From Bacteroidales bacterium (GTDB lineage Bacteria; Bacteroidota; Bacteroidia; Bacteroidales; P3): 39,463 nucleotides of DNA. The notes under the pieces were generated by a model that ran no database searches, had not been told where the DNA came from, and saw only the letters and a list, made by a program, of their open reading frames with translations. Both the position numbers and the translations under genes were made by a program. Every line of letters starts with the position of its first letter. The stretch's first letter is position 1. The stretch is from NCBI GenBank assembly GCA_017428115.1, contig JAFRRK010000090.1:1-39463 (forward strand). The letters run 5' to 3'. Shown here one piece after another: positions 2,488-31,818 of the stretch.

Positions 2488-2824
2488 TGGTAACTAGTGC
2501 GCATTATGCCACACATAGTTGCCGACATAACGGTCCACAAGAGCAGTGGTCCAACAATAATGAATATTAACAGCATTACTATTATTTCGCATTCGAATCA
2601 AAAGCCTCGCAAACTGGAGATTAGAAATATCGAATAGTAGTTCACGGAGAGAATAGCGCTCTCGCTGCATCAAGTAATTAGCTAATGCTCACATTATGGG
2701 TGTGGGCTAATCTAATGATGCAGCGGGGTTCTTGCGAGGCTCCTCGTGAATGCGATAGAAAGGTCTACACCTTTCTTATTGCCGATAAGTGATTGATAGC
2801 AATGCATCATAACTATCAGTCACT
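2488..2824 (+). ncRNA. Long structured leader or small RNA of unknown class
   Basis: This stretch begins just after a strong promoter and ends at the methyltransferase ATG. It forms nested helices. P1 is 2587-2594 with 2748-2755 (8 bp perfect). P2 is 2603-2612 with 2732-2741 (10 bp perfect). P3 is 2663-2672 with 2716-2725 (10 bp perfect, three more pairs with wobbles). P4 is 2677-2682 with 2706-2711. P5 is 2689-2694 with 2700-2705, loop TATGG. Two further hairpins follow: 2757-2764/2769-2776 (8 bp perfect, loop CTAC) and 2788-2799/2813-2824 (12 bp, one U-G pair), the latter ending directly against the start codon. A weaker stem lies at 2532-2552. The loop segment 2803-2810 is perfectly complementary to 2715-2722, so an alternative pairing exists. 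I do not recognise a known RNA family. It may be a cis-regulatory leader or a separate RNA acting with the downstream proteins. Confidence 0.7.
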
Positions 2825-3826
2825 ATGGCAAACAAAAACCTTAATCAGGCAAAAAGCGCCAAGAAAGATGAGTTCTACACACAACTTGTAGACATTGAAA
2901 ACGAGCTACGACATTATCGTGAACACTTTCGAGGAAAGACAGTGTTGTGTAATTGCGACGACCCAAGGGTGAGCAACTTTTTCCACTATTTTAGCTACAA
3001 CTTCGAGCAGTTGGGGCTGAAAAAGCTTATCACCACCTGCTATAAGAATCAAGAACGTGACCTGTTCAGTCAGCACGACAGCGAGCGAGCTATATGGCTG
3101 GAGTATACAGGCGACCATAATGGCAACCGAATACCCGACCCCAACGAAATTGGCATCAACTATCTGCAAGGCGATGGCGACTTCCGTTCTGCTGAATGTA
3201 TCGAACTCTTGAAACAGGCAGACATTGTAGTGACAAATCCTCCTTTCTCATTATTTAGAGAATATGTGGCTCAGCTGATTAGATACAACAAGAAGTTTAT
3301 TATCATTGGCCACCAGAACGCCATCAAATACAAAGAAATCTTCCCATTAATTATGAACAATAAAATGTGGTTGGGATATGGGTTCAAAGGTGGGGCTGGC
3401 CATTTTATTAGCAATTATGAAGATATCGCCACTGCAAGTGATCACCGAAAAGGAATGATAAGGGTTTCTGGTGTAAATTGGTTTACAAACATAGAAATAG
3501 CAAAAAGGCATGAAGAACTAGTCTTATACAAGACCTATAATGCTGAAGAATATCCGAGGTATGACACATTTGATGCAATCAATGTAGAAAAAACAGCTGA
3601 CATTCCTATGGATTATGACGGAGTAATGGGTGTTCCTATTACTTTTATGGACAAATATAATCCCAGCCAGTTCGCTATAGTAGGCGTTATGAACCATGGA
3701 TGTGATTCCGAATATGACCTAGCCAAACCTCTACTCAGGGGAAAAGAGCTATATACACGAATACTAATTCAACGAAGACAATATCAAATAAAAAGGGAGA
3801 CTTTGCCCATAGCAGCAGAACAATAA
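2825..3826 (+). CDS. EcoRI-family adenine-specific DNA methyltransferase
   Basis: This is a DNA N6-adenine methyltransferase of 333 residues, resembling the EcoRI methylase family. The N-terminal segment KSAKKDEFYTQLVDIENELR (about 10-29) leads into GKTVLCNCDDP (38-48), in the S-adenosylmethionine-binding region. The catalytic NPPF tetrapeptide is at 138-141 within DIVVTNPPFSLF. The ATG follows immediately after the 3' strand of a 12-bp hairpin, with no Shine-Dalgarno site, so initiation may depend on RNA folding. The 3' half (from about 3260) is visibly richer in A+T than the flanking housekeeping genes, which suggests acquisition. It lies 12 bp upstream of a DUF262-HNH nuclease gene, so the two are very likely cotranscribed. 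Target sequence cannot be predicted. The family assignment is firm; pairing as restriction-modification is inferred. Confidence 0.88.
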   Translation: MANKNLNQAKSAKKDEFYTQLVDIENELRHYREHFRGKTVLCNCDDPRVSNFFHYFSYNFEQLGLKKLITTCYKNQERDLFSQHDSERAIWLEYTGDHNGNRIPDPNEIGINYLQGDGDFRSAECIELLKQADIVVTNPPFSLFREYVAQLIRYNKKFIIIGHQNAIKYKEIFPLIMNNKMWLGYGFKGGAGHFISNYEDIATASDHRKGMIRVSGVNWFTNIEIAKRHEELVLYKTYNAEEYPRYDTFDAINVEKTADIPMDYDGVMGVPITFMDKYNPSQFAIVGVMNHGCDSEYDLAKPLLRGKELYTRILIQRRQYQIKRETLPIAAEQ

Positions 3827-3838
3827 ATATCATATAAC

Positions 3839-4921
3839 ATGGAAATTACATTACATCAAATAAAGGTGCGCGACTTGGTGGAGGGTTATGTGGACAATCA
3901 GGAAAACGGGGTACGCGCCTACGGCGGCAGACTAGATGTAAGGCCGCCATATCAGAGAGAATTTGTGTACAAGGAAAAGCAGCGGGATGCTGTGATTGAT
4001 ACACTTACACAGGGTTTCCCCTTGAACGTAATGTACTGGGCAGTACGTGAGGACGGCACATTTGAAATCATCGACGGACAGCAACGCACTTTGAGCATAT
4101 GCCAGTATGTGAATGGGGACTATGCCTTTATGTTCCGCTATTTCCACAACCTGACAGACGACGAACAGGGTCAGATACTAGACTATGACCTGCAAGTCTA
4201 TTTCTGTTCTGGCTCAGACAGCGAGAAACTGCGCTGGTTTAAGACCATCAACATTGCTGGAGAGGAACTGACAGAACAGGAGTTGCGAAACGCAGTGTAT
4301 GCAGGCTCATGGCTGGCAGATGCGAAACGTTATTTCTCGAAAAACGGCTGTGCAGCCTATAACATGGGAAAGCAATATGTGAGTGGCGAGGTAAACCGAC
4401 AGGCATATTTGGAAACAGCCATACGGTGGATATCGGATGGCAACATCGAGACTTACATGGGCAAGCACCAGCACGACGGTAACGCAGTGCAACTATGGAA
4501 CCATTTCTGCAATGTAATCAACTGGGCTAAGGCGCTATTCCCCAACTATCGAAGAGAAATGAAAGGAGTTGATTGGGGGAGGCTGTACACCCTCTACCAT
4601 GAGGGTGACTACAATGCCTCTACGCTAGAAACCATGGTGAAACGACTGATGGCAGACAGCGATGTGCAAAGGAAAAAGGGAATATACCAGTATGTATTCG
4701 ACCATGACGAACGGCATTTGGACATACGAGCTTTCGACGACAACACGAAACGGGAGGTATACGAACGACAGTTAGGCGTGTGTCCAATATGCGGACAGTA
4801 TTTCGAGATTGAGCAGATGGAGGCCGACCACATCGTGCCGTGGTGCAAGGGTGGGCGCACGGTAGCAGACAACTGCCAGATGCTATGTCGCAAGTGCAAC
4901 CGAGAGAAAAGCGGGAAGTGA
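3839..4921 (+). CDS. DUF262 (ParB-like) and HNH endonuclease fusion
   Basis: This 360-residue protein has an N-terminal DUF262/GmrS-type domain with the signature IDGQQRT at 78-84, in the segment used by ParB-like nucleases to bind or hydrolyse nucleotide. The middle (about 90-290) is helical and not recognised. The C-terminus is a compact zinc-type HNH nuclease with CPIC (315-318), DH (330-331), DN (344-345) and CRKCN (350-354), ending shortly after at residue 360. Similar DUF262-nuclease fusions such as GmrSD cut modified DNA. Here the neighbour is instead a methyltransferase 12 bp upstream, so it may be the cutting partner of a restriction-modification pair, or a nuclease that senses methylation state. 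All core HNH residues appear intact. Domain calls are firm; substrate and biological role are unknown. Confidence 0.87.
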   Translation: MEITLHQIKVRDLVEGYVDNQENGVRAYGGRLDVRPPYQREFVYKEKQRDAVIDTLTQGFPLNVMYWAVREDGTFEIIDGQQRTLSICQYVNGDYAFMFRYFHNLTDDEQGQILDYDLQVYFCSGSDSEKLRWFKTINIAGEELTEQELRNAVYAGSWLADAKRYFSKNGCAAYNMGKQYVSGEVNRQAYLETAIRWISDGNIETYMGKHQHDGNAVQLWNHFCNVINWAKALFPNYRREMKGVDWGRLYTLYHEGDYNASTLETMVKRLMADSDVQRKKGIYQYVFDHDERHLDIRAFDDNTKREVYERQLGVCPICGQYFEIEQMEADHIVPWCKGGRTVADNCQMLCRKCNREKSGK

Positions 4922-31693: not shown

Positions 31694-31764
31694 CAAAAAA
31701 AAATTTAAATATTCGTAAAAAAAAAATAACAATTTATATCCAAAGTGTACAAAACAACTGACCA

Positions 31765-31795
31765 TAAAAAAAGGCTTCCGCCAATGGCGGAAGCC
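31765..31795 (-). terminator. Terminator of the etf operon
   Basis: GGCTTCCGCC (31773-31782) and GGCGGAAGCC (31786-31795) form a perfect 10-bp stem with an AAT loop. In the minus direction an eight-T tract follows (31765-31772). This is a textbook intrinsic terminator, 24 bp after the etfA stop. Confidence 0.95.
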
Positions 31796-31818
31796 TGCTA
31801 TCGGTCTTTTGCAACTAA

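Follow-up and report, generated by a model that had tools for sequence, protein, structure and literature searches.

A candidate riboswitch-like leader RNA upstream of restriction–modification and other genes in Bacteroidales

Results

A structured leader in front of a restriction–modification gene pair

The window, by which we mean the whole stretch of 39,463 nt that was analysed, carries an EcoRI-type adenine methyltransferase gene and a restriction enzyme gene, preceded by a promoter and a long leader. The features are as follows.

2453–2483, + strand: Bacteroidales-type promoter (TTTG at 2453–2456, a 19 nt spacer and TATTTTTG at 2476–2483)
2488–2824, + strand: leader RNA, 337 nt, between the promoter and the methyltransferase start codon
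2488–2552, + strand: 5′ part of the leader, with two predicted hairpins (2488–2524 and 2532–2552)
2573–2582, + strand: conserved 5′ element GCAUUACUAU, complementary to the P7 5′ arm and loop
2587–2756, + strand: core domain P1–P5, from fold and covariation
2587–2595/2748–2756, + strand: P1, predicted helix
2603–2612/2732–2741, + strand: P2, predicted helix
about 2615–2618/2629–2632, + strand: P3, predicted inner stem
2641–2647, + strand: J element UUCACGG, partly complementary to 2742–2750 and competing with part of P1
2663–2672/2716–2725, + strand: P4, predicted helix
2681–2690/2698–2707, + strand: P5, predicted inner stem
2699–2705, + strand: P5 3′ strand GGUGUGG, whose second complement is the 3′ element at 2765–2771
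2724–2728, + strand: CGGGG, proposed pseudoknot partner of 2742–2746 (CCCCG)
2757–2779, + strand: P6 hairpin and U-rich tract (arms 2757–2764/2769–2776), terminator-like by eye
2765–2771, + strand: 3′ element CUACACC, within the P6 region just before the U-tract
2788–2823, + strand: P7 hairpin (arms 2788–2799/2812–2823), ending one base before the ATG
2825–3826, + strand: EcoRI-type adenine methyltransferase (PF13651, by Pfam)
3839–4921, + strand: GmrSD_N (DUF262)-HNH restriction enzyme (PADLOC REase_II over the full length)

An earlier note on this DNA had named three nested helices by position, and these were located in the predicted fold as P1, P2 and P4; the two inner stems (P3 and P5) and two 3′ hairpins (P6 and P7) that it had also described were present. 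Its statement that so much exact nested pairing would hardly arise by chance held as well: the minimum free energy (MFE) of the 337-nt leader was −116.1 kcal/mol, whereas shuffled sequences averaged −80.8 kcal/mol (sd 5.1); this corresponds to z −6.9, and none of 100 shuffles was as good. The 5′ part (2488–2552) corresponds to one hairpin of variable sequence in many homologues, as judged by eye. A terminator scan, which has a loop limit of 8, found no simple terminator in the window leader. The promoter predicted at 2453–2483 consists of TTTG plus TATTTTTG, which we take to be the Bacteroidales −33/−7 pattern. The motif lies on the sense strand of the leader, and we infer that the leader is transcribed.

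Covariation of the core

A covariance model of homologous leaders, proposed in the earlier note, was used to search genomes, and the homologues showed covariation. In a MAFFT alignment of 26 sequences that was not fitted to structure, 19 of the 47 predicted pairs had double changes. With 98 distinct Bacteroidales sequences, in an alignment fitted to the covariance model R1, 38 of the 47 pairs had them, and 812 double-change cells were counted vs 248 in shuffles. Of the cells, 94.0% were paired in these 98 sequences, and this fell to 30–43% when the partner was shifted by one to three columns. Both A2 and A7 are alignments fitted to the models, and the 47-pair structure includes the pseudoknot and the pairing of the 5′ element with P7. 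For the pseudoknot CGGGG/CCCCG, 79% of cells were paired in the 98 distinct sequences. The letters of the 5′ element/P7 pairing are nearly invariant, with a double change in one pair out of eight, so that covariation says little on that pairing. G-U pairs are tolerated in the leader helices, and some conserved nucleotides are unpaired in the model.

Distribution of the leader

By blastn, the window leader matched 42 of 120 genomes of the genus, some of them only with short pieces, while R1 (E≤0.001) matched 55 of the 120. At the same threshold, R1 matched 28 of 393 genomes of the order (17 of 206 genera, a few matches being weak) and 5 of 395 genomes in a phylum-wide sample, namely the window's own genome and four weak matches. 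In three further genera, matches with E≤1e-8 were obtained in 7/15, 15/18 and 18/40 genomes. The large genome scans scored 5–16 candidates per genome, and low scan counts may for this reason be incomplete. The leaders described below were fetched as part of the matches from the genus, order, three-genera and R3 (see below) scans. Among 80 methyltransferase loci chosen by protein similarity, 34 had an R1 match of >60 bits that ended ≤6 nt from the start of the methyltransferase match (one of them cut by a contig end). Of 50 viral methyltransferase loci, a single one (L124) gave an R1 match. With blastn, no record in plasmid or phage collections matched the window leader, a search that divergent forms could escape. 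A weak R1 match within the window (31726–31806; 13.9 bits, E 0.024) is probably due to chance.

Rfam 15 gave no match for the window leader, 16 other loci and 19 loci of the compact form described below, in line with the earlier note, which had recognised no known RNA class. At relaxed thresholds, the window leader produced chance matches only (best STnc240, minus strand, 22.6 bits vs a gathering score of 55). Likewise, L224 gave only chance-level matches at E≤2, far below the gathering scores.

At one locus (L260; G039:C37), a relic-like leader of 66.7 bits has no methyltransferase behind it and adjoins a gene that by eye resembles the window's umuC-like gene. This is possibly a lost restriction–modification system.

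A compact form

Diverged matches were found upstream of methyltransferases in a viral contig (L124), in contigs titled Porphyromonas (L087), Prevotellaceae (L064) and Alistipes (L072), and in other orders of the class (L224 and L377). All six represent a shorter version of the leader in which P3 is absent by eye. In an unfitted alignment of these six sequences, 15 of 28 pairs had double changes; with 41 matches fitted to model R3, 24 of 28 pairs had them (260 cells vs 64.5 in shuffles). R3 matched 66 of 266 genomes of a second order (the order of G839), in 14 of 83 genera and with up to nine matches per genome. Upstream of methyltransferases, it matched 11 of the 46 loci left by R1 (≥34 bits), three of which had been used to train R3. 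The weak R1 hit outside the order in G781 (L224) was confirmed with model R2 and then served to train R3. The weak R1 places in G769, G531 and G793 are partial matches and unconfirmed (the alignment of L225 was viewed); R3 matches G531 and G793 elsewhere. Pattern searches for the compact form in viral contigs gave either no match or once more the contig of L124; in the order of G781, 118 genomes yielded G781 alone.

Among 30 fetched matches of the compact form, the products of the first or nearby genes include TonB-receptor Plug proteins, at a distance of ~220 nt, as well as a GmrSD_N protein, an N6-type methyltransferase and a large number of secreted proteins with no assigned family. The link to restriction–modification is thus weaker outside Bacteroidales.

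At L385, a second copy of the 5′ part of the compact RNA lies directly behind the first, before an N6-type methyltransferase gene. Four compact RNAs (L380, L381, L387 and L390) are located near a repeated gene, presumably an IS1595-type transposase. Weak to moderate R3 matches (26–46 bits) occurred in contigs titled Kiritimatiellaeota/Kiritimatiellia (L059, L063 and L084), L059 directly upstream of a methyltransferase; transfer beyond Bacteroidota is a possible explanation.

Genes behind the leader

Compiling the Bacteroidales leaders, which are roughly 270–330 nt long, gave 176 entries, in which certain places occur more than once, and 165 different leader sequences. To name the first genes, we grouped them by blastp and used Pfam scans of proteins from the window and of representatives. 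An EcoRI-type methyltransferase was the first gene in 95 of the 165. Small HTH-like proteins followed in 12 cases and surface-modification enzymes in 10 (GDSL acylhydrolase, sulfatase/phosphoethanolamine-transferase-like, acyltransferase 3, GT2, DUF2334/polysaccharide-deacetylase-like). Type III-like N6_N4, C5 and Eco57I/N6 methyltransferases accounted for six each, P-loop ATPases for five, large proteins without a family match for four, helicases and MmeI-type IIG enzymes for three each and D12 methyltransferases for two. An N6_N4 methyltransferase, a Tsp45I endonuclease, a second N6 type, an FRG domain protein and an HSDR_N/N6 fusion were present once each. Three leaders preceded other genes, and five had no open frame behind them (contig ends, broken genes and one weak hit). 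Restriction–modification or defence-like genes thus stood behind 126 of the 165 leaders by raw count.

The earlier note had considered that the RNA might set the balance of methylation and cutting. The same RNA stands before C5, N6, D12, type III, IIG, helicase, glycan-modifying and HTH-like genes, which argues against this role. It had also considered an RNA that works with the proteins. A guide-like or scaffold RNA for the DUF262-HNH nuclease or the methyltransferase would suit the HNH nuclease downstream in the window and would resemble the omega RNA (HEARO) of IscB, a structured RNA upstream of an HNH nuclease gene. However, the nuclease is not a constant neighbour of the leader, the next genes vary widely and include other families and single surface genes, and no Rfam family matches. 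The occurrence of the leader before unrelated gene classes argues against an RNA partner of the HNH nuclease, and we give a guide-like function hardly any chance.

That S-adenosylmethionine or S-adenosylhomocysteine (SAM/SAH) is the common ligand is disfavoured, given that the leader is also found at surface, helicase and HTH-like genes. The HTH-like protein was rejected as a universal partner: one query matched 42 of 120 genomes of the genus and left 78 without a match, the window's own included. The HTH label itself is weak (of five proteins scanned, two had no Pfam match and one of the other three was above the curated cut-off). The HTH-like loci are L293, L303, L312, L314, L326, L334, L345, L351, L352, L353, L275 and L277.

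The leader might instead be the target of a conserved RNA-binding protein or of a trans-acting RNA, its structure serving as a binding platform and not as a small-molecule sensor. The gene classes share no obvious metabolite and some conserved nucleotides are unpaired in the model, both of which would suit such binding. Yet no partner was found, and the 78 genomes of the genus without a match to the HTH-like query include the window's. We regard this explanation as unlikely.

In a quick tree of 158 leaders (all but L217, L218, L260, L344, L323, L258 and L264), the minimum number of changes is 36 for gene class, 5 for surface genes vs all others and 41 for genus; support is poor for many branches, and these are raw counts.

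Promoter motif, start codon and P7

The motif TAnnTTTG was present ≤170 nt upstream of 119 of the 165 distinct leaders (12.5 expected from mononucleotide shuffles) and absent in 46. Next genes were sought only downstream on the leader's strand, and for 143 of 160 an in-frame ATG was located between −9 and +6 nt relative to the leader end (17 had none there).

These positions bear on the idea that the leader is a mobile or recombinogenic DNA element, such as a repeat or the boundary of a cassette, that travels with restriction–modification genes and whose fold matters at the DNA level. Several copies in some genomes (up to nine), the changes of gene class on the leader tree and the relic-like copy L260 without a modification gene would agree with mobility. 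The fixed spacing from leader to start codon and the upstream promoter motif do not, and the G-U pairs in helices and the covarying alternative helices described below argue for RNA. A mobile DNA element thus has only a slim chance of being correct.

Start regions folded with ≤−5.2 kcal/mol in 146 of 157 leader genes vs 7 of 23 other starts of the window; this folding left out L217, L260, L344 and the five leaders without an open frame. In Prevotella bryantii, a start-region structure of −5.2 kcal/mol reduced the reporter level fivefold, according to the accessible part of PMC3155529. The survey of the 5′ element and P7 covered the leaders other than L217, L218, L275, L277 and L260. In front of the five P-loop genes (L315, L317, L324, L327 and L329), the core is well matched and P6 is U-rich, the start lies 26–87 nt further on, and P7 is absent by eye. 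This fits an aptamer with exchangeable platforms. By eye, a secreted-protein gene follows the P-loop ATPase gene at each of these loci.

Alternative pairings

The P5 3′ strand could pair with the 3′ element through at least eight contiguous pairs in 82 of 100 leaders (7.4 expected), and at least five U were found in the 8 nt behind the 3′ element in 82 of 85 scored. In this alternative helix 89.1% of cells were paired and 8 of 9 pairs had double changes (score 0.358 vs 0.242). At a looser limit of at least six pairs, the complementarity was seen in 91 of 100 (44.9 expected). A slide of +2 still pairs 78% of cells, and the 3′ element resembles the P5 5′ strand, which accounts for part of the complementarity. 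All 28 compact forms scored had at least six pairs (17.9 expected; a weak test, with 2 of 30 loci left out that lack the motif). The sequence flanking the 3′ element could form at least six Watson–Crick pairs with downstream sequence in 13 of 30 compact loci (1.7 expected), and the other 17 loci stayed below this limit.

The J element could form at least five Watson–Crick pairs with the strand between P2 and P1 in 62 of 100 leaders (18.3 expected). For this helix, 73.9% of cells were paired with a score above all shuffles, but the numbers of changed pairs and pair types were not above shuffles.

In pseudoknot-free folding, P5 was closed in the MFE structure for all lengths tried, and a fold constrained to contain the helix of P5 and the 3′ element was less stable by about 20 kcal/mol. 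A switch would therefore need a pseudoknot or a signal.

P7 alone should lower translation. A constitutive 5′ untranslated region (UTR), stabilising or limiting translation so as to keep potentially toxic genes low, could hence do without switching. Neither a covarying core nor several alternative pairings that covary would be required in such a UTR, and we assign it a small chance.

Discussion

Structure, covariation, complementarities and gene associations of the leader are what the analysis shows. Both its position in front of a gene and its conserved structured core are those of a riboswitch, and the conserved alternative pairings suggest that the genes are switched on and off. Judging from sequence comparison, the leader is probably a modular, riboswitch-like cis-regulatory RNA that controls the gene whose start codon it abuts (probability roughly 0.64). 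Two parts of the interpretation given in the earlier note have stood, namely a structured leader that is undescribed as far as searched, for which covariation is strong, and a cis-regulatory role, which is the best reading. The tie to the pair of EcoRI-type methyltransferase and DUF262-HNH genes was not supported.

In a cis-regulatory RNA of this kind, the conserved core (P1–P5 with the pseudoknots) would be the sensing part and the 3′ half the output. In one state, P5 would be closed, the 3′ element free and P6 formed locally. In the other, the P5 3′ strand would pair with the 3′ element before the U-tract, giving a terminator-like helix and attenuation of transcription. In Bacteroidales, P7 may form a second gate by covering the start codon and controlling translation, and the 5′ element, being complementary to the P7 arm and loop, could open or dock P7. 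We infer that the alternative helices form in turn and that the genes have a shared regulatory need. Unrelated restriction–modification, defence and surface genes would have acquired the leader module repeatedly.

Tentatively, and with the odds clearly against it, the reading could be widened to a Bacteroidota-wide RNA sensor of one infection- or stress-linked signal. This sensor would switch a dispersed regulon of barriers (restriction–modification of several types, defence helicases and surface glycan modifiers), each of which acquired the switch independently.

Riboswitches and attenuating leader RNAs combine a conserved core with exchangeable expression platforms. The leader likewise has a 5′ UTR position, a conserved core, potential alternative helices, a U-tract and a start-codon hairpin; it differs in that it has no Rfam match and that the genes behind it have no pathway metabolite in common. 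JUMPstart/RfaH and UpxY-type leader elements are shared by polysaccharide operons and are similar in heading surface-polysaccharide genes, whereas the leader lacks an Rfam match and mostly heads restriction–modification genes. Control of restriction–modification is known mainly through C proteins, autorepression by the methyltransferase and antisense RNA. In the EcoRI and Eco29kI systems, antisense RNAs arise from reverse promoters of single systems, according to the accessible part of PMC3874152. Those RNAs also control restriction–modification, but the leader is on the sense strand and common to many unrelated systems.

No description of the leader RNA was found in the literature searched, including the accessible parts of Weinberg 2010 (PMC2864571), Ryan 2020 (PMC7366714) and PMC7160235; it may still be contained in a 2017 survey of 224 candidate RNAs or in subscription journals. 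As far as sequences can tell, we are apparently dealing with a new family of seemingly switching leader RNA with an unusual, defence-centred gene set in Bacteroidales. Its covariance models can find more members of the family, and the proposed switch, with its alternative helices, lends itself to a direct test by compensatory mutation. With one leader in front of EcoRI-type, C5, N6, D12, type III and IIG systems and of surface-modifying enzymes, many barriers to foreign DNA would have an RNA-level input in common; the bacteria concerned include numerous species of rumen and gut.
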